Shown here piece after piece: positions 542 through 62,699 of a DNA stretch of 64,000 bases. The number at the start of each line of letters is the position of its first letter. The stretch's first letter is position 1. The DNA comes from Calothrix sp. NIES-4105. GTDB lineage: Bacteria; Cyanobacteriota; Cyanobacteriia; Cyanobacteriales; Nostocaceae. Location: positions 933,470-997,469 of the forward strand of contig NZ_AP018290.1 in the NCBI RefSeq assembly GCF_002368415.1, read 5' to 3'. Under the pieces are notes generated by a model. The model was not told the origin of the DNA. It saw only the letters and a program-made list of their open reading frames with translations, and searched no databases. The position numbers were made by a program, and so were the translations under genes.

Positions 542-1027
542 ATGTTAATGTTACTTTTCTATATTGGAAATAATTTGTATGCAATTGAGAGTTCGCGGGT
601 CGTGGAGGTCATTCCTAGAGTCTCTTATCGCGAAGTTCATCATGTACCGAATTATGTTGCTGGTTTGTTTAACTACCGTGGCGCCATTGTCCCTGTTATT
701 GATTTGTGTCATTTAGTTCGAGGGACACCGAGTCGAGCTAACCTCAGTACAAGGGTATTTATCGTGAGTTATCCTTGTCAGGAAGATAATACATTGCAAT
801 ACGTCGGTTTGATGGCAGAACGAGTCATCAAAACGGTGAAGAAGTCAGCCAGCGATTTTTTAACATCGGGTATTAAAACTAACGAGGCTTCCTACTTAGG
901 CGAAATGATTATGGATGAAAAAGGTATGATTCAACATATAAATTTAGAAGAACTATTTACTAATTTGCGAAAAATAAATCTTTTAAAATCTGGAGGGCTA
1001 ACCGCGCATGTCCCTAACAGCTATTGA
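542..1027 (+). CDS. CheW-like coupling protein (WspB-like)
   Basis: A 161-residue single-domain CheW protein, which links a receptor to the CheA kinase. The fold signature is clear: an N-terminal strand around LLFYIGNNLYAIE, then VVEVIPRV, then the diagnostic VAGLFNYRGAIVPVIDL near residues 40-57. ATG at 542 is the only sensible start. The end overlaps the next gene (cheR, ATG 1008) by 20 bases, which suggests translational coupling. By position and neighbours it corresponds to WspB of the Wsp pathway; that assignment is inferred from gene order as CheW sequences alone do not separate B from D. Confidence 0.9.
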   Translation: MLMLLFYIGNNLYAIESSRVVEVIPRVSYREVHHVPNYVAGLFNYRGAIVPVIDLCHLVRGTPSRANLSTRVFIVSYPCQEDNTLQYVGLMAERVIKTVKKSASDFLTSGIKTNEASYLGEMIMDEKGMIQHINLEELFTNLRKINLLKSGGLTAHVPNSY

Positions 1028-2210
1028 AAGTTTACTGAGCAAAAAAATTGGTGTTGATTTTAAGATTATTGGTGATAGTAAAATTACCAAAGCAGTAGAA
1101 AATCGACGCTTGATTTGTGGTATAACTGATTTAAAAGCTTATCTCCAGCTTTTACAAACTTCTCAAGAAGAATTTTCGGAACTAGTTGAACAAATTGTCG
1201 TTCCCGAAACCTATTTTTTTCGTGACCGCAAATCTTTTGATTTTCTGCAGATGGTTGCCAAAGAGTGGCTAGCTAAACCTAATCATGCTATACTTCGCTT
1301 GCTAAGTGTACCTTGTTCTACTGGTGAAGAGCCTTACTCAATTGCCATTGCTTTAATCGAAGCCGGATTAACTACTTCCCAGTTTGGTATTGATGCTATT
1401 GATATTAGTAAACAAGCAATTTCTAAAGCACAACGCGCAATTTATGGTAAAAATTCATTTCGAGGTCAAGAATTTGTTGACCGTCACCGCTATTTCCGGC
1501 AAATTAAGGAGGGATATGAAGTTTGTGACGAGGTGCGGAATTTAGTCAATTTTCGTCAAGGTAATCTTTTGGATACCTTTAAAACGGCGCCAGCCAAATA
1601 TGACATTATCTTTTGCCGCAATTTGTTAATTTATTTAGAACCTCCTGCCTGCACACAAGTGTTCAATATTCTTCATCGCTTGTTGCAGCCTTCTGGGTTA
1701 CTCTTTGTTGGCGCCGCCGAAACCGCAAAAACTCCTAGCAACCTTTTTACATCGGTTCGTCAATCTTCTACCTTTGCCTACCGAAAAAGCTCGGCAGTAA
1801 AATCACAGTCTCCTGAAGTGAAAACGGCGCCCACTTTCACAAAACCGCGTCAAAAGCCAGAAAAAATACTCTCTTCTCCTGTAACTGCTTCTAATAACGC
1901 ACCTAGTTTAATCGAACTAGCCAAACAATTAGCAGATGCCGGACATGTGGAAGCTGCAATTAACCATTGTAACGACTACTTGAAGCGTGAAACTTCTACC
2001 AACGCCGAAGCGCACACTTTACTAGGCACACTATACCAAGCAAAAGCCAACTATATTCAAGCCGAACAAAGTTTCCGCAAAGCCCTCTATTTAAATCCTA
2101 ATGACTACGAGGCACTAATGCACCTAGCATTATTGAAAGAACATTTTGGAGATATAGCAGGCGCCTCTATTCTCAAGCAAAGAATTCATAACTTAAAGGG
2201 CAACAATTAA
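1008..2210 (+). CDS. CheR-type receptor methyltransferase with C-terminal TPR (WspC-like)
   Basis: A 400-residue SAM-dependent glutamate methyltransferase of the CheR family. An N-terminal helical domain leads to PETYFFRD (about residues 65-72), then the SAM-binding loop CSTGEEPYS near residue 103, then FCRNLLIYL near 205. A low-complexity linker (about 250-300) joins a C-terminal TPR region (about 300-390; ANYIQAEQSFRKALYLNPND). CheR fused to TPR is the WspC architecture. GGAGG lies about 10 bases before the ATG, inside the cheW gene. It is expected to methylate the receptor encoded at 2247, opposed by CheB at 7619. Confidence 0.9.
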   Translation: MSLTAIESLLSKKIGVDFKIIGDSKITKAVENRRLICGITDLKAYLQLLQTSQEEFSELVEQIVVPETYFFRDRKSFDFLQMVAKEWLAKPNHAILRLLSVPCSTGEEPYSIAIALIEAGLTTSQFGIDAIDISKQAISKAQRAIYGKNSFRGQEFVDRHRYFRQIKEGYEVCDEVRNLVNFRQGNLLDTFKTAPAKYDIIFCRNLLIYLEPPACTQVFNILHRLLQPSGLLFVGAAETAKTPSNLFTSVRQSSTFAYRKSSAVKSQSPEVKTAPTFTKPRQKPEKILSSPVTASNNAPSLIELAKQLADAGHVEAAINHCNDYLKRETSTNAEAHTLLGTLYQAKANYIQAEQSFRKALYLNPNDYEALMHLALLKEHFGDIAGASILKQRIHNLKGNN

Positions 2211-2246
2211 ATATAAACTCAAACTTCCCTATTAAAGTAAACAATT

Positions 2247-3833
2247 ATGGTGACAAACGTATTTAAAGACCAAACCTTACAAGGTCGTATCATGAGCGCC
2301 TTCATGTCTATGGGAGTATTAGTTCTCATAGTATCACTAATCGGCTTAGGTACAACCTTCAGTTTGAGCGGAAACATTGACACATTAAGTAATAATAGTT
2401 TGCCAAGCTTAGTTGGCTTATGGAAAGTCAACGAAGGACAAACCCAAATAGAATCATCAGAAAGATTTCTATTAGTTCCAGGATTAACTCCACAAGAACG
2501 ACAAGCAGAATTAACTCGAATTAAAAATGCCTGGGAGCAAATTGACGAAGGTTTTAAGCAATACGAAACAACTCCCCGTACCCCCGAAGAAGATAGAATC
2601 TATAAAAAGCTCCAAGACAATTGGAACAAATGGAAAAACGACCACGAAGAATTTCTGAAGCTAAATCAACAATTTGATAGCTTAGAAATTCCAAACCCCT
2701 ACGCTCTTGAAGTACAACTTTTGCAACAAAACAAGGCAGCTTCTCCAGAAATGGCAACTGTGAAAAAAGCAGTTAATGCCTTAGACCAACTCCGCACTCG
2801 CGCTAAAAATAATCGTGTCACGTTTGAAGCAGCAACTAGCTCCATATTAGACAGTTTAAAAGTTAACGAAAACACTGCTACAGGTGCAGAAAAAGACGCA
2901 GAAAGAGATATTAACCAGTCAAGGTTTTGGTCGGTTGCGGCAATGCTAATTGGACCTGCGCTGGCAATTATCCTTGGACAGTTTATTAGCAAAGCTTTGA
3001 CTCGACGCATTCAAAAGTCTGTCGTTCAAATTACAACCTCTGCCACACAAATTGCAGCATCAGGTAAAGAACTAGAAGCTACCGTTGCCGAACAAGTTGC
3101 TTCCACCAATGAAGTAACAGCAACCGCTCTCGAAATTGCGGCAACTTCTAGAGACTTAGTAAAAACAATGGATGAAGTCGGCAGAATGGCAACTGCAACA
3201 GCGAATAAAGCAAACTATAGTCAGGATGAACTTGCCAAGATGGAAATTGTAATGCGGCAATTGACCGAAGCTACTACTTCTATTTCTTCCAAGTTGGGAG
3301 TAATGAATAATAAAGCTAACAATATTAATAACGTTGTGGTAACGATTACCAAAGTTGCAGACCAGACAAGTATTTTATCACTCAATGCCGCGATTGAAGC
3401 AGAAAAAGCAGGTGAGTATGGTGCAGGTTTTGCCGTTGTTGCTCGTGAAATTAGGCGCCTTGCCAATCAAACGGCTGTTGCAACACTAGAAATTGAACAA
3501 ATTGTCAAAGACATGCAATCTGCGGTTACAGTCGGTGTAATGGAAATGGATAAATTCAACAAATCTGTGAATGATAGTGTTGAGCGAGTCAGTAAAATTA
3601 GTTTCCAAGTTGGCGAAGTAATTAGTCAAGTACAGAGTTTACCTCCCCAGTTTGAGCAAGTCAGCCAAAGCATGGAAGAACAATCCGAAGGCGCCCAGCA
3701 CATTAGCGAAGCAATGGAACAATTAAGTCAAGCTTCCGAGCAAACCGTTGATGCATTGCGTGAAACAAATAACGCCTTAGAACAATTAGATGATGCCGCG
3801 CGAGGCTTACGCAAATCAATTTCTTCTAATTAA
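2247..3833 (+). CDS. Methyl-accepting receptor, WspA-like
   Basis: A 528-residue chemoreceptor. TM1 is at about residues 15-37, a roughly 190-residue helical sensor region follows (four-helix-bundle type), and TM2 is at about 226-247. The cytoplasmic MCP signalling domain has the hairpin tip QTSILSLNAAIEAEKAGEYG. The tip variant EAEKAGEYG and the following IRRLANQTAVAT match what I recall of Pseudomonas WspA better than classical MCPs, which have EAARAGE. No clear HAMP domain is visible between TM2 and the coiled coil. The gene sits between cheR and the second cheW, whereas wspA is first in Pseudomonas. The ligand or stimulus cannot be read from sequence; surface contact is the precedent. Confidence 0.88.
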   Translation: MVTNVFKDQTLQGRIMSAFMSMGVLVLIVSLIGLGTTFSLSGNIDTLSNNSLPSLVGLWKVNEGQTQIESSERFLLVPGLTPQERQAELTRIKNAWEQIDEGFKQYETTPRTPEEDRIYKKLQDNWNKWKNDHEEFLKLNQQFDSLEIPNPYALEVQLLQQNKAASPEMATVKKAVNALDQLRTRAKNNRVTFEAATSSILDSLKVNENTATGAEKDAERDINQSRFWSVAAMLIGPALAIILGQFISKALTRRIQKSVVQITTSATQIAASGKELEATVAEQVASTNEVTATALEIAATSRDLVKTMDEVGRMATATANKANYSQDELAKMEIVMRQLTEATTSISSKLGVMNNKANNINNVVVTITKVADQTSILSLNAAIEAEKAGEYGAGFAVVAREIRRLANQTAVATLEIEQIVKDMQSAVTVGVMEMDKFNKSVNDSVERVSKISFQVGEVISQVQSLPPQFEQVSQSMEEQSEGAQHISEAMEQLSQASEQTVDALRETNNALEQLDDAARGLRKSISSN

Positions 3834-3845
3834 CTATAAATATAT

Positions 3846-4580
3846 ATGTTAAGTGACTCGGCGATTTCAGATTCTATAATTGACCACCCCGTCTTAAATG
3901 ACTGCTGGAATAAAATTGGTGTCATGGGCGACCGCTCCTGTGGTGAACTAAAAACAGTCATTCATTGCCACGACTGTCCAGTTTTTGCTGCAGTTGGAGA
4001 CAGTTTGCTCGAACGTATACCACCGCATAATTACGTAGAAGAGTGGATTAATGTATTAGCAGAAACACCCGTTGACGAAGAAACGCAAAGCAATGAAGCC
4101 GTTATTAAAACAGCATCCGCTATTTCCGTAATGATTTTTCGTCTCGGCAATGAGCAGTTAGCTTTGAGTGCCAAAATATTGCAGGAAGTCACACACCCCT
4201 GTGTCATTCAACCCCTGCCTCACCGCAGTAATTCATTATTCTTGGGACTAGTAAATATTCGTGGAGAAACTTTGCTTTGCGCTTCGCTGCACCATCTGCT
4301 CAACTTAGAAGCAACTGAAGAAAAAGAGAATTCTTCAAACAAAGCTGTAAATGCACAACGAATGATGGTAGCAGGACACCAAGATGATAAATGGGTGTTT
4401 CCCGTTGATGAAGTCTATGGTATTTATCGTTTTCACCATCAGGAGTTACGAGATGTGCCTGTTGTCATTACTAAAGCTGCCGAAGCTTACACCCAAGGAA
4501 TTATCAACTGGCAAGATGCAAAAGTTAACTATTTAGACTCTGAGTTATTGTTTTACACCCTCAATCACAAAATTTTGTAG
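3846..4580 (+). CDS. CheW-like coupling protein with Cys-rich N-terminus (WspD-like)
   Basis: A 244-residue protein with two parts. The first ~55 residues carry the pattern DCWNKIGVMGDRSC and HCHDCPVF, a Cys/His-rich segment I associate with WspD-type CheW proteins. Residues about 95-240 are a CheW domain (MIFRLGNEQLALSA, then LGLVNIRGETLLCASL). The four clustered cysteines could bind metal or respond to redox; that is inference. It starts 12 bases after the receptor stop and is followed by a 234-base gap before cheA, the only long gap in the operon. Confidence 0.87.
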   Translation: MLSDSAISDSIIDHPVLNDCWNKIGVMGDRSCGELKTVIHCHDCPVFAAVGDSLLERIPPHNYVEEWINVLAETPVDEETQSNEAVIKTASAISVMIFRLGNEQLALSAKILQEVTHPCVIQPLPHRSNSLFLGLVNIRGETLLCASLHHLLNLEATEEKENSSNKAVNAQRMMVAGHQDDKWVFPVDEVYGIYRFHHQELRDVPVVITKAAEAYTQGIINWQDAKVNYLDSELLFYTLNHKIL

Positions 4581-4814
4581 GGTTTATATTTACCACAGAG
4601 ACACGACGGGCACCTTAGAAAATTTGGAGGGGTTTGGCGCCTTCTTAAAAGATGTTTGTAAAGTATAAAAATAGACATATAATAAAAAAAACCGCCGTGA
4701 ATTCCCTCTTTGTGTCCTTCGTGCCTTTGTGGTTCATCAAAGGAATAAACCACAAAGGTCACATAATCCGAAGGATTTCCCGCAGGGTAGGGCACAAAGG
4801 AAGAGGGGAAAGTT
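4581..4814. repeat. Intergenic copy of the dispersed 'ACCACAGAGACAC' repeat
   Basis: No gene is visible in these 234 bases. They hold a block beginning accacagagacacgac near 4591 and an inverted block (ctttgtgtccttcgtgcctt... / ...aaccacaaaggtcac...gggcacaaagg, about 4708-4800) that can fold back on itself. Related words recur at 480-515, 14775-14800, 26375-26455, 29845-29935 and 41231-41262. It separates wspD-like and cheA-like genes and might attenuate transcription between them. Confidence 0.6.
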
Positions 4815-7607
4815 ATGAATGATTACAACTTATTTGATTTATTTCATAAAGAGATGGAAACTCAGGTATCAATCCTGAAAGAATCTCTAACAGCACTTAA
4901 TAAACAACCATCCTCCATTACCCACCTAGAACGAGCAACTCAAGCAGTACATTCAATTTGGGGAAGCGCGCGACTAGTTGGCAGAGAAAAAGCTGCTGAC
5001 TTAGCACAAGTTATGAAGGAGTGTTTAATTGCGGCTCAAAACAAAACTGTGATACTGGGTGATGAACAGATTGATGTCTTGCTTCATGGCAGTGATTTGC
5101 TATTAAGTATGGGTACAACAGAACCAGAGTATGAGCGCTGGATGTCTGAACATTCTTGGGAACTGGGAACTACTCAAAAAGCGATTTCTATTATCGTTAC
5201 ATCAGAAACCAAGGCGCCTTCCCCAAATCAACCAGCACCTATTCAAGAAATTATATCAATAACTCCCGTAAGTAATCCTGTAAATAATCCTGTAAATAAT
5301 CCTGTAAATACCATCACTGCCGACAGTTCGATGGTGGATTTATTTCGCTTGGAAGTAGAAGCGCAAGTTCGTGTAATGAACGACAGCTTGCTGGCATTGG
5401 AAGGCAATCCACAATCGGTGCCTGCGTTGGAAAGCTTGATGCGGGCGGCTCATTCAATTAAAGGTTCTGCCAGAATTGTAACCCTTGATACAGTGGTTGG
5501 GTTAGCTCACGTGATGGAAGACTGCTTTGTTGCAGCACAACACAAAACCATAACATTAAGTTCTGCACAAGTTGATATACTCCTTCAAGGGATAGATTTA
5601 TTGCAAGGTATTAGTAGCACGAGTAACGAAGAATTACCTAACTGGTTGGCAGAAAATCATGCAGCATTTGCAGGAGTACAATCAGCAGTTGCAGCTATTT
5701 TAAATCCAAATTTACAGGCGCCTATAAGTGTAGAACCTAACCCCCCAGCCCCCTTCCCTACGAGGGAAGGGGGAGAAAAAGTGGAGCAATTAGGAGAAAA
5801 AGAATCAAAGCCTCTGTCTTCTCAGGAGAGAAGTTTGGAGAGAGGTCAACCAGAACAAACACCAGCACAAGACCGAGTTGTACGGGTAAGTGCAGAAAAT
5901 TTGAACCGTATCATGGGTTTGGCTGGGGAATCATTAATTGAGGCAAACTGGTTACAACCTCATGCGGACTCGATGATGTCTTTAAAATGGAACTTGGTTG
6001 ATTTATCGAGAACGTTAGAACAATTACAGGATGCTTTTGACCGAGGTAATAATACTCTTGATGTAAAACAATACTTAGAAGAAGCACGACACAAAGAACA
6101 AGCATGTGTTGATTTATTAAGTGACCGCTTAAACGAACTTGAACTTTATGCTCAACGAACTGCTAATTTATCCGACCGTCTGTATCGAGAAGTAATTACT
6201 TCTAACATGCGTCCGTTTGCTGATGGTGTTCAAGGTTTTCCTAGAATGATTCGCGATTTAGCACGGAAGTTAAATAAACAAGTCAAGTTAGATATTGTCG
6301 GTAAAGCAACATCGGTTGACCGAGATATTCTTAAAAAGTTGGAAGCTCCTTTAACCCACATATTGCGGAATGCTACCGACCACGGTATTGAAATGCCCTC
6401 GGAAAGAATAGAAAAAGGTAAACCTCCTGAAGGAACTATTCGCTTAGAAGCATTTCATCGTGGCGGGATGTTAGCTATTAGTATATCTGATGATGGGCGA
6501 GGCATGGACTTAGAGCAGCTGCGGCAAAAGGTAATTAATAAAAACCTGGCAACAAGAGAAATGGCGGCTCAACTTTCGGATGCAGAACTGATGGAGTTTA
6601 TATTTTTACCTGGGTTTTCAACTGCCAAACAGGTAACGGAAATTTCTGGACGTGGTGTGGGTTTAGATATTGCCAAAAGTATGGCACAAGAAGTTGGAGG
6701 AACGGTACGTGCGGTTTCTCAACCAGGTTCTGGAATGAGCTTTCATTTTCAACTGCCATTAACACTGTCGGTTGTGCGAACGCTGTTGGTAGAAATTTCT
6801 GGAAGACCTTATGCGGTACCTTTAGCCAGAATTGAGCAAATTATTACTGTCGATGAAGAGTCTATTTGTGATGTAGAGAATCGACAGTATTTTACCATGA
6901 ATCAACAAAATATCGGGTTAATTGCTGCCGAGCAGGTGTTAGAGTTACCCCAAACAGAGCCAAAAACTGGCCCTATGTCAGTAGTTGTAGTTAGTGACCA
7001 GTCTAATATATATGGATTAGTAGTAGATAAATTTCTTGGTGAACGCGATTTAGTTGTAAGACCCCTCGACCCTCGCTTGGGTAAAGTGCGTGATATTAGC
7101 GCTACATCTTTATTAGAAGATGGTTCACCTGTTTTGATTGTCGATGTCTCTGATATGGTGCGGACAATTGATGCTATTCTTAACGCTGGACGAATTTCTA
7201 AAGTTGGTTCAGAAGGTGTAGAAGAAGTAATTAATCAGCGTAAGAAAATTTTAGTTGTCGATGACTCAATAACGGTTCGGGAAATGGAGCGTAAGCTATT
7301 AGAAAATCGTGGTTACAGTGTAGATATTGCTGTCAATGGGATGGAAGGATGGAATGCAGTTCGTGCAAATCACTATAATTTGGTAATCAGCGATATTGAT
7401 ATGCCACGTATGAATGGCATTGAACTAGTTCAGCATATTAAGAGCCATTCCCGTTTACACTCGCTTCCTGTCATCATTATGTCCTACCGCGACCGCCAAG
7501 AAGACCGCATTCAAGGGTTAGAAGCAGGCGCCGATTATTACTTGACAAAAAGTAGTTTTCATGATGACACCCTAATAGAAGCTGTAGTTAATTTAATCGG
7601 TCGTTGA
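4815..7607 (+). CDS. Hybrid histidine kinase CheA-REC with two HPt domains (WspE-like)
   Basis: A 930-residue kinase. Order: HPt1 (about 1-105, His46 in HSIWGSAR), linker with a VNNP tandem repeat (three copies, 5271-5310), HPt2 (about 170-270, His213 in HSIKGSAR), a proline-rich linker containing an inserted dispersed repeat, the dimerisation/ATPase region (about 355-640; [23 protein letters not shown]), a CheW-like domain (about 645-790) and a C-terminal receiver (about 815-930, phospho-acceptor Asp860 in SDIDMP). WspE has one HPt; here it is duplicated, and in HPt1 the Lys after HSI is Trp. ATG 4815 follows gggg at about 4806. It should phosphorylate CheB and the cyclase regulator downstream. 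Confidence 0.93.
5738..5845. repeat. Dispersed palindromic repeat embedded in frame in cheA
   Basis: Inside the cheA linker there is an 11-base stem/3-base loop palindrome (CCCCCTTCCCT-ACG-AGGGAAGGGGG, 5749-5773) followed by a looser inverted pair (CCTCT...AGAGAGG, 5811-5844). It encodes the peptide [12 protein letters not shown]. The same palindrome with one loop change occurs between genes at about 39783-39806. It keeps the reading frame open, so it behaves as a tolerated insertion between folded domains. Confidence 0.75.
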
Positions 7608-7618
7608 GGTCAAAAAAA

Positions 7619-8608
7619 ATGAAAATCGCTATCGTTAACGACTTAACAATTGCAGTCACAGCACTACGACAGGTATTACAAACAGTACCAGAATATCAAG
7701 TAGTTTGGGTAGCGCGCGATGGAGCAGAAGCTGTTACAAAATGCGCGCAAAATACCCCCGACTTAATCTTAATGGATTTATTAATGCCCGTAATGGATGG
7801 GGTAGAAGCAACTCGCCAGATAATGCAAAACTCTCCCTGTGCAATTTTTGTAGTTACTGCCAGTACCGACAAAAACGTAACTAAAGTCTATGAAGCAATG
7901 GGATACGGCGCCCTGGATGCAGTAGATACCCCTGTTCTATTTGGTAAAGATGCTGCGATTACGGCAAATAAGCTCTTATCTAAAATATCTAGAATTAGTA
8001 AACTGCTAAAAAAGTCTCCAGGCACAAAAATAAAATTATCTACTCCAGCTTCTAACCAAGTACCTTTAATCGCAATTGGCTCATCAACGGGGGGACCCAA
8101 AGCATTAGCTGATATTTTATCAAAATTACCTGCAAATTTTAACGCCGCAATTGCCATTGTCCAGCATGTAGATGCTCAGTTTTCTAGTGGACTTGTTGAG
8201 TGGTTAAACCAGCAAAGTAAATTACCAATTAGATTAGCAGTTACAGGCGACTCATTACAAAAAGGAACCGTTTTAGTCGCTGGAACCAACGACCATTTAT
8301 ATTTAAAGCCAGATTTAACACTTAGTTACACCAAAGACCCGATTAAATATCCTTATCGTCCATCAGTTGACGTATTTTTTAAAAGTCTAGCTCAAAACTG
8401 GAAGCGTAAAGGAACAGCTATTTTACTTACAGGAATGGGTAAAGATGGAGCAGATGGACTAGGCGCCTTACGTAAGCAAGGTTGGCACACAATAACCCAA
8501 GATAAAGCAAGTTGCGTAGTATATGGAATGCCAAAAGCTGCTGTGGAGTTAAATGCTGCTATAGAAATATTGGCGCCAGATGATATTGCTTCTTCTTTAC
8601 TCAAATAA
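7619..8608 (+). CDS. CheB-type receptor methylesterase (WspF-like)
   Basis: About 329 residues: N-terminal receiver (Asp53 in LMDLLMP) and C-terminal methylesterase. The catalytic set is visible: Ser156 in SSTGG, His183 in QHVD, and the Asp in GMGKDGADG (about residue 277). It removes methyl groups from the receptor when phosphorylated by CheA. A TTG at 7604 would overlap the cheA stop, but ATG 7619 has a GAGGT ribosome site 8 bases upstream and fits the family, so I choose 7619. In the Wsp pathway WspF loss locks the output on; the equivalent here would act on cyclase activity. Confidence 0.92.
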
Positions 8609-8622
8609 TTATTTAACATTTT

Positions 8623-10134
8623 ATGACTGACCAAATAACCGTTTTATTAATCGACGACCAATCTATAATTGGTGAAGCTATTAGAGGAATGCTGGCGCCC
8701 GAACAAGATATAGTATTTCATTATTGCAGTGACCCCACACTTGCTTTGAAAACAGCGGTACAGTGCAAACCAACCATTATTTTACAAGACCTTGTAATGC
8801 CACAAATGGATGGATTGCTTTTAGTACAATATCTTCGTTCATTTGATTCCCCTACCTGTCATGTTCCTTTAATTGTTCTATCTAGTAAAGAAGAACCAGT
8901 TATTAAAGCTAAAGCATTTTCGCTTGGCGCCAATGATTACTTGGTAAAACTTCCAGATAAAATGGAACTAATCGCCCGTATCCGTTATCATTCCCAAGCT
9001 TATATTAATTTTTTAAAGCGACAAGAAGCAGAAGCTCTCTTCAAAGCTGAAATAATGCGACAAGCAGCATATATTGAACAGGTGGATAGGGTAACATCTG
9101 CTGCAACGGATGTTGAACGCGATGCTTTTCAACCAGATGCATTAGATGAGGTTGCCAAACGCAGCGATGAGTTAGGCAAACTCGCACGTGTTTTTACCAA
9201 TATGGTGAAAACGGTTAAAATTCGTGAAACAGAGTTGATAAGCGCGAATACTCAGCTAGAGTCTTTATTAAAAGCTTACGGACGATTTGTACCTCACGAA
9301 TACTTGCGTTTTTTACGTAAAGAGTCAATTACCGATGTAAACTTGGGCGACCATGTAAGCAAAGTCATGGCAGTAATGTTTAGTGACATTCGCTCGTTTA
9401 CTACAATCTCTGAAGGTATGACACCTCAAGATAATTTTAACTTTGTTAACGCATATCTCAAGCGCGTTAGTCCAGAAATACGCAGTAACTACGGTATCAT
9501 CGTCAAATTTTTAGGAGATGGGATGATGGCAGTATTTCCCGAAGGCGCCGATGATGCAATTGCTGCCGGGGTAGCAAAACAAAATCAAGTTCAAAAATAC
9601 AACATTTCTCGCAAACAACAAGGCTACTTACCACTCGAAGTAGGTATTGGAATTCACGTTGGACATATGATGTTAGGGATGGTGGGTGAAGAAAGTCGAA
9701 TGCAGGGAGATGCCTTTTCCGATAACGTTAACCTTACCGCGCGTTTAGAAGGGCTAACAAAATTTTATGGAGTATCACTGTTAATATCCGAACAAGCTCT
9801 ACAAAATATGAGTAATTCAAATAAATATCAAATTCGGTTTTTAGACAGAGTAATTGTCAAAGGACGAACTGAAGCCATTGCAGTTTACGAAGTACTTGAT
9901 GCAGAAGCTGAAGAAATCCGTCAACTCAAAATCAAAACCCAAACTGATTTTGAAGAAGCGCTAAAGTATTACAAATACGCCGACTTTGCTCAGGCACGTC
10001 ACAGCTTTGAAAACATGCTTTCTGTAAATCCCACAGATAAAACAGCTAAATTATATCTGCAACGTCTGGAAATTTTATCGCAGCGAGGAGTACCTGAAAA
10101 TTGGAATGGTGTATGGGCTTTGACTGAAAAGTAA
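8623..10134 (+). CDS. Response regulator with class III adenylate/guanylate cyclase output
   Basis: A 503-residue protein: receiver (about 1-125, Asp56 in QDLVMP), a helical linker ending in a HAMP-like segment (RSDELGKLARVFTNM, about 180-195), class III cyclase domain (about 245-425), and a C-terminal tail with TPR-like character. Both metal aspartates are present: Asp255 (FSDIRSFT) and Asp299 (FLGDGMM). Lys295 and Asp367 occupy the positions that select adenine, and Asn370/Arg374 fit the transition-state pair, so cAMP is the likely product. It takes the place that WspR (receiver-GGDEF) has in Wsp operons and is 14 bases after cheB, completing the operon. Confidence 0.92.
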   Translation: MTDQITVLLIDDQSIIGEAIRGMLAPEQDIVFHYCSDPTLALKTAVQCKPTIILQDLVMPQMDGLLLVQYLRSFDSPTCHVPLIVLSSKEEPVIKAKAFSLGANDYLVKLPDKMELIARIRYHSQAYINFLKRQEAEALFKAEIMRQAAYIEQVDRVTSAATDVERDAFQPDALDEVAKRSDELGKLARVFTNMVKTVKIRETELISANTQLESLLKAYGRFVPHEYLRFLRKESITDVNLGDHVSKVMAVMFSDIRSFTTISEGMTPQDNFNFVNAYLKRVSPEIRSNYGIIVKFLGDGMMAVFPEGADDAIAAGVAKQNQVQKYNISRKQQGYLPLEVGIGIHVGHMMLGMVGEESRMQGDAFSDNVNLTARLEGLTKFYGVSLLISEQALQNMSNSNKYQIRFLDRVIVKGRTEAIAVYEVLDAEAEEIRQLKIKTQTDFEEALKYYKYADFAQARHSFENMLSVNPTDKTAKLYLQRLEILSQRGVPENWNGVWALTEK

Positions 10135-42088: not shown

Positions 42089-43756
42089 TTAATTGGAGGT
42101 GTTATTTTCTTTAGTCTTATTATTTGATGAATTAGTAGAACCGTTCAAATTATCAATCATTACTTGATTTTTCAACCAAATAGCTAACATGGCAGAAAGT
42201 TGAGATAAAGAATCTTCTAACTTGGGAGACAATTCCACAGGTAAACTTCCCGAACGTATATGCAGGGAACGTTGAGGAAGGGGAATCTGAATATTCTGGT
42301 TTCGTAAATTTTCGTCGATTTGAAAGTAGAGGTCGCTTTTAATTTGAAATTGCCTTCGAGGTTTAGATATCCAAACTAACAATTGAAAATCTAAATAATC
42401 TTCACCGAATCCTTTAACCCAGACTTTTGGCGCCGGTTTATGTAAAACTTCTGAATTCTTTTTTGCTGCTTCTAGTAATGCCGAACGGATTTGAGGCATG
42501 TTTGAATTATAACCTACACGAATCGGTAATACTAACCGAGATGCTTGATTATGATGGCTCCAGTTTTTAACTTCTTTTTCTAACAGTCGAGAATTTGGGA
42601 CAATTACTAAAATGTCATCTAGGGTGCGGATATGAGTACTGCGAGCATTTAAACGCTCTACTGTTCCCATATGTTCCCCTATTTCTATAAAATCTCCAAC
42701 TTGAATTGAGCGTTCAAAAGTAACTACCAAACCACTTACTAATTCTCTGGCAACTCCCTGTAAGCCAAAACCAATTGCAACACCCAAAATACTGGCGAAA
42801 ATAGCTAAAGAACTGATATCCAAGCCCCAAATTTGCAACAGGACAACAGTACCAATAAATAAAAGACTATAGTTGAAAATAACAGCAATAGATTCTTGAA
42901 CACCTCGACTTATGCTCGTAATTCGTAGGATACGCGAGCGCAGTAAGTTGGTAACAGCTCCTGCAACAGCCAGTAATCCAAAAAATAAGCCAATTAAAAT
43001 AAGTATATTGATGACTGAGTAAGATTTGGCGCCTAAAGAAACTACGGGGGATGTTAAACTCATCGAGAGAATGCTTGTAATGCGCTGACTCCACTCCCGC
43101 GTTAATGGAAATAAGTCTGTAATATAAATGATTATTCCCACCCACAACCCTGTACGAATTAAGAAAAGTGTCAAGTACAAAAGTAATTCTAGACCCTTTG
43201 GTTGCGCTCCTGTTTCGGGGTCGTTAGCAGCCCTTGGCACTAGCCTTCGTAACCAATATTGCCAAACCCAGCCTAAAAGTTTATGTATAAATAATGCACC
43301 TATTACTGAAACAAAAGCAACTAATATCGTCTGAGTTATGTAACTAGCCTTTCGTTCTTGTTGACCTTGCTGTATTGCCTCAGTAATTATTTGTGCCCAA
43401 ATTTTCGCTTGTTCTTCTTTTGTTCTACCAGTTGGTATATCTTGTGAGGTGACAGTTAATAAGTGGCGCCCTTGAACTCGAATAACTGGTAATTGGTTAT
43501 TTTCTATAATCTCAACTTTTACAGGTTCGCTGGAACGAACTGCCTGCTTTAAAATCAAATTGGCATCAGTCGCGCGGTTTTCTGCACTAACTTGACCTGT
43601 ATCACTAACTTTAAATAGCTGGTGCCCATCAAGTGTAATAGAAGAATTCTGTCTAGTTTGCGCTTGTACAGGTGTCACTAACAGCAAGCATCCTAATATT
43701 ACTACCAAAGCAATAGACCTAATAATAGAATGAATCTGAAAGTGATTACGACGCAT
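42089..43756 (-). CDS. MscS-family mechanosensitive channel with long N-terminus
   Basis: About 555 residues from ATG 43756 (frame open back to a TTG at 43795). Signal peptide (IIRSIALVVILGCLLLVTPV, cleavage after QA), a ~110-residue periplasmic part, several TM helices, and the MscS core: pore helix GVAIGFGLQGVARELVSGLV, then beta domain VGDFIEIGEHMGTVERLNAR and the C-terminal alpha/beta domain. Releases solutes at osmotic downshift. A second, smaller MscS is at 61689. Confidence 0.88.
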   Translation of the reverse strand: MRRNHFQIHSIIRSIALVVILGCLLLVTPVQAQTRQNSSITLDGHQLFKVSDTGQVSAENRATDANLILKQAVRSSEPVKVEIIENNQLPVIRVQGRHLLTVTSQDIPTGRTKEEQAKIWAQIITEAIQQGQQERKASYITQTILVAFVSVIGALFIHKLLGWVWQYWLRRLVPRAANDPETGAQPKGLELLLYLTLFLIRTGLWVGIIIYITDLFPLTREWSQRITSILSMSLTSPVVSLGAKSYSVINILILIGLFFGLLAVAGAVTNLLRSRILRITSISRGVQESIAVIFNYSLLFIGTVVLLQIWGLDISSLAIFASILGVAIGFGLQGVARELVSGLVVTFERSIQVGDFIEIGEHMGTVERLNARSTHIRTLDDILVIVPNSRLLEKEVKNWSHHNQASRLVLPIRVGYNSNMPQIRSALLEAAKKNSEVLHKPAPKVWVKGFGEDYLDFQLLVWISKPRRQFQIKSDLYFQIDENLRNQNIQIPLPQRSLHIRSGSLPVELSPKLEDSLSQLSAMLAIWLKNQVMIDNLNGSTNSSNNKTKENNTSN

Positions 43757-61688: not shown

Positions 61689-62699
61689 ATGAATGCAGAA
61701 ATATCAGCAGTTTGGGACAAAATGCAGAGCATGATTAACGGATTTATTGTCCTGCTGCCCAATATTGTGCTAGCGTTGATTGTTTTTGTCATTTTCTTTT
61801 TTGTTGCTAGGGCAATTAAGCGGTTAGTTAAACGTTTAACTCGTAACCGTCGGCAAGCGAGGAATTTGGGATTAGTGCTGGGACGCTTGGCACAGGGTGT
61901 AACAATTTTAGTCGGTCTATTTGTCGCTCTATCGATAGTCATACCTACATTCCGTGCAGGTGATTTAGTGCAACTGTTGGGAATAAGTGGGGTAGCAATA
62001 GGTTTTGCTTTTCGCGATATCCTACAAAATTTCTTATCTGGTATCTTAATTCTTTTAACTGAACCGTTCCAAATTGATGACCAAATCGTGTTTAATAATT
62101 TTGAAGGAACGGTAGAAAATATTGAAACCAGGGCAACGACAATCAGAACTTACGATGGGCGCCGCATAGTAATTCCAAATTCTCAATTATTTACCAATTC
62201 TGTTACCGTTAATACCGCTTTCGATAGCCGTCGCATTGAATACGATGTTGGCATTGGTTACGGTGATGACATCGACTGGGCAAAGGAGTTAATGCTCGAA
62301 GCTATACATAGTGTAGACGAGGTATTGAAAGACCCGGCGCCTGATGTGTTGGTGATGGAACTAGCTGAAAGTACTGTCAATATCCGCGCGCGTTGGTGGA
62401 TTAAACCACCACGACGAATAGATACTCTCAGATCAAGGGATAAAGTGATTTCTGCAATCAAGAAGAAGTTAAGTGAAAATGGTATTGATTTGCCTTTTCC
62501 AACCAGACAAATTTTATTCCACGACCAAACCGAACAGACGGATGGAGATCGCTCTCAACAGCGTGAAGGTTGGCCTGCAGGTCACAAAGATGTACCAAAA
62601 CCTCGCCGCATTGCTGATTCACTGCGGTTACTCGCCCAAACACGCTCGTCAAACAACAATAACGGCAAAGTAGATCAAACTACGAACGACGAAAAATGA
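61689..62699 (+). CDS. MscS-family mechanosensitive channel (short form)
   Basis: 336 residues, ATG 61689. Three TM helices with the pore segment ISGVAIGFAFRDILQNFLSG (about 100-119), beta domain QIDDQIVFNNFEGTVENIET, then the cytoplasmic domain ending in NGIDLPFPTRQILFHDQTE. A polar tail follows. The stop overlaps the next start by four bases (ATGA), so the DUF2254 gene is translationally coupled. Confidence 0.92.
   Translation: MNAEISAVWDKMQSMINGFIVLLPNIVLALIVFVIFFFVARAIKRLVKRLTRNRRQARNLGLVLGRLAQGVTILVGLFVALSIVIPTFRAGDLVQLLGISGVAIGFAFRDILQNFLSGILILLTEPFQIDDQIVFNNFEGTVENIETRATTIRTYDGRRIVIPNSQLFTNSVTVNTAFDSRRIEYDVGIGYGDDIDWAKELMLEAIHSVDEVLKDPAPDVLVMELAESTVNIRARWWIKPPRRIDTLRSRDKVISAIKKKLSENGIDLPFPTRQILFHDQTEQTDGDRSQQREGWPAGHKDVPKPRRIADSLRLLAQTRSSNNNNGKVDQTTNDEK

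Follow-up and report, generated by a model that had tools for sequence, protein, structure and literature searches.

A Wsp-type chemosensory operon of Calothrix sp. NIES-4105 with a predicted adenylate cyclase as output and a candidate phosphodiesterase gene upstream

Wsp systems are the textbook link of surface contact to cyclic di-GMP. The window, which is the whole 64,000-nucleotide stretch of Calothrix sp. NIES-4105 DNA analysed here, contains a set of Wsp-like genes whose last member carries a class III cyclase domain. The locus raises the question of whether a Wsp complex has been coupled to a different messenger, and which proteins surround such a pathway. The relevant features, all on the + strand, are as follows.

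1 to 476, +: HD-type protein, C-terminal part; candidate cyclic-nucleotide phosphodiesterase (position, invariant residues, model fold)
542 to 1027, +: CheW, WspB-like (open reading frame, domain match)
1008 to 2210, +: CheR-TPR, WspC-like (open reading frame, domain match, motif)
2247 to 3833, +: 4HB chemoreceptor, WspA-like, with 4HB and MCP signalling domains (domain match)
3846 to 4580, +: CheW with N-terminal Cys motif, WspD-like (domain match, motif alignment)
4815 to 7607, +: CheA, WspE-like, with two Hpt, HATPase, CheW and REC domains (domains, trees, motifs)
7604 to 8608, +: CheB, WspF-like, with REC and CheB domains (start at TTG 7604 or ATG 7622)
8623 to 10134, +: output protein of 503 amino acids, comprising a WspR-type receiver, linker, class III cyclase and C-terminal tail (domains, alignment)
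8641 to 8985, +: output receiver domain, residues 7-121, phospho-acceptor D56 (domain match, motif)
9028 to 9342, +: output linker, HAMP-like by eye (DELGxLARVF), with no Pfam HAMP match
9367 to 9879, +: cyclase domain, residues 249-419, with D255, K295, D299, D367, N370 and R374 (domain match, alignment)

The seven same-strand open reading frames at 542 to 10134 retain intact catalytic motifs, and motifs for phosphotransfer, methylation and demethylation are all present in their products. Open reading frames and domain matches thus agree with the sequence-only reading, an earlier annotation that had listed seven co-directional genes with these domains. Its spacing of 3 to 50 bases with one exception is roughly right, except that the last 20 bases of the first cheW are shared with cheR; the remaining spacings are 36, 12, 234, -4 or +14 (for a CheB start at TTG 7604 or ATG 7622) and 14. 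The gene order, B-C-A-D-E-F-output, differs from the A-B-C-D-E-F-R of proteobacterial loci, as that reading had said of Pseudomonas. Pfam HAMP does not match the window's chemoreceptor, and does match those of several relatives. The Cys-rich N terminus of the second CheW was considered as a possible peculiarity of this operon and rejected: all 17 of the WspD-type proteins of the Wsp clade that were aligned have its four Cys residues, and 16 of the 17 have its His. The host genome comprises 12.0 Mb in 8 contigs and has six class III cyclase profile matches.

The operon chassis is Wsp by descent, with a different effector, as judged from the CheA trees, the WspR-like receiver and the shared WspD Cys motif. 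A FastTree phylogeny of 91 CheA rows contains one fully supported Wsp clade of 81 rows, which unites the window and 39 other cyanobacterial rows with proteobacterial Wsp CheAs. The latter include those of Pseudomonas sp. G34, L198 and the plasmid loci L105-L110, which each have a receiver-GGDEF output. Ten rows fall outside: four other CheAs of the host genome, those of E. coli and Bacillus, and four more. A mixture-model tree of 38 rows has a 28-row Wsp clade at 100/100; the cyanobacterial group within it is at 93/87, unstarred, with L138 apart, and in both trees open forks remain among the cyanobacterial outputs. The output receiver scores 157.7 bits against 3i5a and 153.6 bits against 3bre, which we take to be structures of WspR, and 56.5 bits against the next solved receiver. 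Its identity with the corresponding domain of the Pseudomonas sp. G34 output is 55%. The placement of CheA had been chosen beforehand as the test of the Wsp assignment, and it bears that assignment out. Every chassis component of Pseudomonas Wsp is present (two CheW, CheR-TPR, CheA-REC, CheB and a receptor, the last compared with relatives by identity and Pfam), as is the receiver. In contrast to Pseudomonas, the receptor gene is third, and a PF00211 cyclase of class III type takes the place of GGDEF. Because the output lacks GGDEF, the name Wsp is applied here to the chassis and not to the cyclic di-GMP pathway.

In class III cyclases, a Lys/Asp selecting pair corresponds to ATP. Residues D255, K295, D299, D367, N370 and R374 are invariant in an alignment of 41 rows (window included), two of which lack the receiver, and they supply the two metal Asp, the Lys/Asp pair and the Asn/Arg of a class III adenylate cyclase. 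Both metal Asp and the selecting pair had been noted previously, and the assignment of an ATP-type enzyme finds its support in residues K295 and D367. Thus, the output enzyme is predicted to make cAMP from ATP. In the receiver, D56 and K109 are present and are kept in at least 90% of the 41 rows. Full-length receiver-cyclases occur in 6 of 292 sampled genomes of the phylum and, within the order, in 27 of 388 genomes and 17 of 149 genera; the loci of two of these 27 genomes (G420 and G466) were left out. In a database of 5.8 billion proteins, 1734 of 8000 scored candidates reach E 1e-60, and query coverage is 99-100% in 112 of the 120 matches listed. One Wsp-type receiver-cyclase lies outside cyanobacteria, in a metagenome-assembled genome titled Deltaproteobacteria (L137:5326-6783). 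It has Glu and Arg at the selecting positions, and its product is perhaps cGMP or another compound.

A search for the same gene order elsewhere, as the sequence-only reading had proposed, found this type of operon in other cyanobacteria. A related cluster was described in 2016 for Phormidesmis priestleyi BC1401, with wspB-C-A-D-E-F followed by a class 3 adenylate cyclase that replaces WspR (PMC4971617). Its gene order and cyclase output are those of the window, so the Wsp-to-cAMP arrangement is already in print for a relative, and sequence supports it well here. The upstream gene differs: it is HD-type in the window, whereas a cyclic-nucleotide-binding gene precedes wspB in P. priestleyi. The accessible part of that article holds neither a clade test nor any report of exchanged outputs or of a gene resembling a phosphodiesterase. 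A 2012 survey of ACF clusters with CheR-TPR reports multidomain response regulators and lists a mononucleotidyl cyclase among the outputs (PMC3447774); it shares with the window the combination of CheR-TPR and cyclase outputs, and its accessible part does not describe the window's operon. The present analysis adds the clade test, the evidence for an exchangeable output, a candidate phosphodiesterase gene that is probably first in the operon, and a channel gene adjoining the operon in some relatives.

Sequence comparison indicates that the output gene of this operon type is exchangeable among cyanobacterial relatives, at least 80 of whose loci were collected (a collection and not a census). In related operons the WspR-type receiver is joined to a SpoIIE-type phosphatase, a histidine kinase, a PAS-kinase-REC-Hpt arrangement or a second type of cyclase, which is only 27-28% like the first and shares its Lys/Asp selecting pair. 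With 72 rows of the 91-row CheA tree labelled by output, at least 10 output changes are counted, in which gain and loss are indistinguishable. In the clearest case, the CheAs of Cuspidothrix CHARLIE-1 (L124) and Nostoc FACHB-973 (L125) are sisters at 100/100; the output of the former is a receiver-SpoIIE protein and that of the latter a receiver-cyclase. Because the CHARLIE-1 receiver is closer to that of another receiver-SpoIIE protein (L090) than to the FACHB-973 receiver, the entire output gene, and not the effector half alone, was probably exchanged. The linker-cyclase-tail block of the window is also found without a receiver in two loci (L100 and L101), a hint that these parts were at some time captured together. 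In the window, a Wsp-type input and receiver would be coupled to a different messenger, and close relatives with phosphatases or kinases as output provide natural material for comparing different outputs of a single input.

Some loci are incomplete. In 3 of 30 receiver-cyclase loci (G562, G346 and G292) no chassis gene adjoins the cyclase. The first of these, from the window's own genus, shows no chemosensory gene in the 19.9 kb analysed (L213), and its genome has no Wsp-type CheA (best CheA, 33% identity); a genome can therefore have the enzyme and lack the chassis. In G213, which was counted as one operon, the chassis with CheA and the cheB-cyclase pair lie on two contigs. In G380, three chassis genes are on the other side of the cyclase and reversed. 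A broken Wsp operon in G278 (L211) has a short HD-type gene fragment upstream.

The HD-type gene encodes 315 amino acids (L102:11999-12946). It starts 472 bases before the window, and 65 bases separate its end from cheW, which has the same orientation; its C-terminal part appears in the window as the open reading frame 57-476. The operon therefore probably starts outside the window, with this gene. Its family (43 rows) has invariant H43, H47, H85, D86, Q89, D185 and Q246, and we take the metal-site residues to be equivalent, position by position, to the site of class I phosphodiesterases. In the protein model (pLDDT 94.5), a class I phosphodiesterase fold is combined with these residues. All 50 of the fold matches listed are cyclic-nucleotide phosphodiesterases, which align structurally at 10-14% identity. 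Sequence searches detect no relation to class I enzymes (PDE1, 4, 7 and 9). At E up to 10, the PDEase_I profile gives no match to the family in any of the 6 genomes searched, the family has no match by sequence among PDB chains, and Pfam HD matches 4 of the 43 members (E up to 0.01). Given the lack of a PDEase_I match, the family is not filed as a class I phosphodiesterase and possibly works like one. The gene is accordingly best described as a candidate for a dedicated cyclic-nucleotide phosphodiesterase.

The association of this gene with the cyclase is consistent with such a role. It is near the receiver-cyclase in 10 of 30 loci and near none of 28 loci with another output or none; these loci were counted by hand and are not independent, and a single genome (G131) contributes three of the 28. 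The gene was not found in the other 20 receiver-cyclase loci, and contig ends cut some loci. Among HD homologues on contigs of 10-110 kb, 16 of 36 have exactly the contig size of a listed receiver-cyclase, where 0.045 would be expected. The gene adjoins a GAF-PAS-cyclase in G211, and no recognised cyclase is found within 19 kb of it in G070. In G310 and G338 this gene and a channel gene are found on the opposite strand, downstream of the cyclase; in G292 both are on the opposite strand, upstream of the lone cyclase. Among the open-access papers that a literature search listed, none names a phosphodiesterase-like gene tied to such an operon. The linked family would be an unannotated partner of cyanobacterial cAMP signalling. 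Large genes are also near the HD-type gene in the window's genome (L102:4965-10857) and in G064 (L212:9483-17120), and by eye these resemble peptidase-type ABC exporters.

The channel genes encode MscS proteins with a C-terminal cNMP-binding domain. In Chlorogloea CCALA 695 (L128), Phormidium tanganyikae (L132) and FACHB-63 (L136) they precede the first cheW by 9-74 bases, in the same orientation. Such channels occur in 6 of 30 receiver-cyclase loci versus 0 of 28 others. Their coincidence with the cyclase in contig size (4 of 52, with 0.074 expected) is much weaker than that of the HD-type gene. P. tanganyikae and, by profile, Chlorogloea have a further neighbouring cNMP-binding gene, which in P. 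tanganyikae encodes a SulP-STAS transporter; some operons with a different output (L090, L124 and L134) also have nearby MscS-like genes, which lack the binding domain. Because P. priestleyi ULC007 has a 66% relative of the channel, the cyclic-nucleotide-binding gene noted in strain BC1401 is plausibly an MscS-type channel gene. For the window's operon, a neighbouring cNMP-binding gene was sought with a profile of five neighbours (four seed stretches), and neither the window nor 13 kb of upstream sequence yielded one. The host genome has 32 matches for cNMP binding above the cut-off, all away from the operon. The channel query finds only two MscS parts in this genome (E up to 1e-20), both without the binding domain; they happen to lie in the window, at 42287-43075 (-) and 61809-62489 (+).

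These data favour a Wsp-clade complex that drives cAMP synthesis by phosphorylation, accompanied by a candidate dedicated phosphodiesterase, and we assign this reading a probability of about 0.72. A periplasmic cue on the 4HB receptor would change CheA activity, and CheR-TPR and CheB would tune the receptor through methylation. CheA would phosphorylate D56 of the output receiver, and the linker would relay this event to a cyclase homodimer that converts ATP to cAMP. With less certainty, the HD-type gene product might serve as the corresponding phosphodiesterase and terminate the signal, and proteins with cyclic-nucleotide-binding domains might be the effectors. The nearest effector candidates, in some relatives, are the MscS-type channel and the SulP-type transporter with such a domain.

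The HD-type protein might instead hydrolyse another substrate, whether a nucleotide, a ppGpp-like compound or something else, and only travel with the cyclase. HD proteins act on many substrates, helical folds score high, and a fold is no proof of substrate; the sequence searches and the G070 locus fit this explanation as well. However, its repeated linkage to class III cyclases and the uniform identity of the listed fold matches argue for a phosphodiesterase, and we give the alternative somewhat less than an even chance. Perhaps the complex drives a cyclase that makes cGMP or both nucleotides. The selecting pair can switch the substrate of class III cyclases, and the Glu and Arg of L137 show that Wsp-type outputs vary there, but K295 and D367 are invariant in all 41 rows and form the pair for ATP, which makes this quite improbable.

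The sequence-only reading had envisaged a surface-contact signal that controls pili and motility by way of a CRP-type receptor. The window's receptor shares its 4HB and signalling domains with that of Pseudomonas sp. G34, and the many cNMP-binding matches in the genome leave room for such a receptor. Against this, the adjacent cNMP-binding genes of relatives encode a channel, a transporter and a two-domain cNMP-binding protein, none identified as CRP, and relatives often have several receptors per operon with differing sensor parts; this version is unlikely. Least probable of all is a relic output, or one that this CheA does not control. The chassis-free cyclases and the broken operon of G278 would fit a relic, but the components in the window are all intact and side by side, and D56 and K109 are widely kept. 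Phosphorylation-driven cAMP synthesis thus remains the preferred reading. A more tentative extension, which we consider possible though doubtful, is a self-contained cAMP cassette of Wsp complex, own cyclase and phosphodiesterase that in part of the group feeds the adjacent cNMP-binding MscS-type channel. If true, an envelope cue would be converted through cAMP to ion flux, and a bacterial phosphodiesterase folded like the class I enzymes of eukaryotes would belong to the same operon.

A few related operons contain additional genes. An extra receptor gene lies between CheB and the cyclase in two loci (L069:11794-14238, 814 amino acids; L227:4503-6944, 813 amino acids), the former with Cache-like and HAMP domains. 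An unrelated open reading frame of 547 amino acids (L087:16850-18493), by its look a transposase, is located between CheA and a split CheB.
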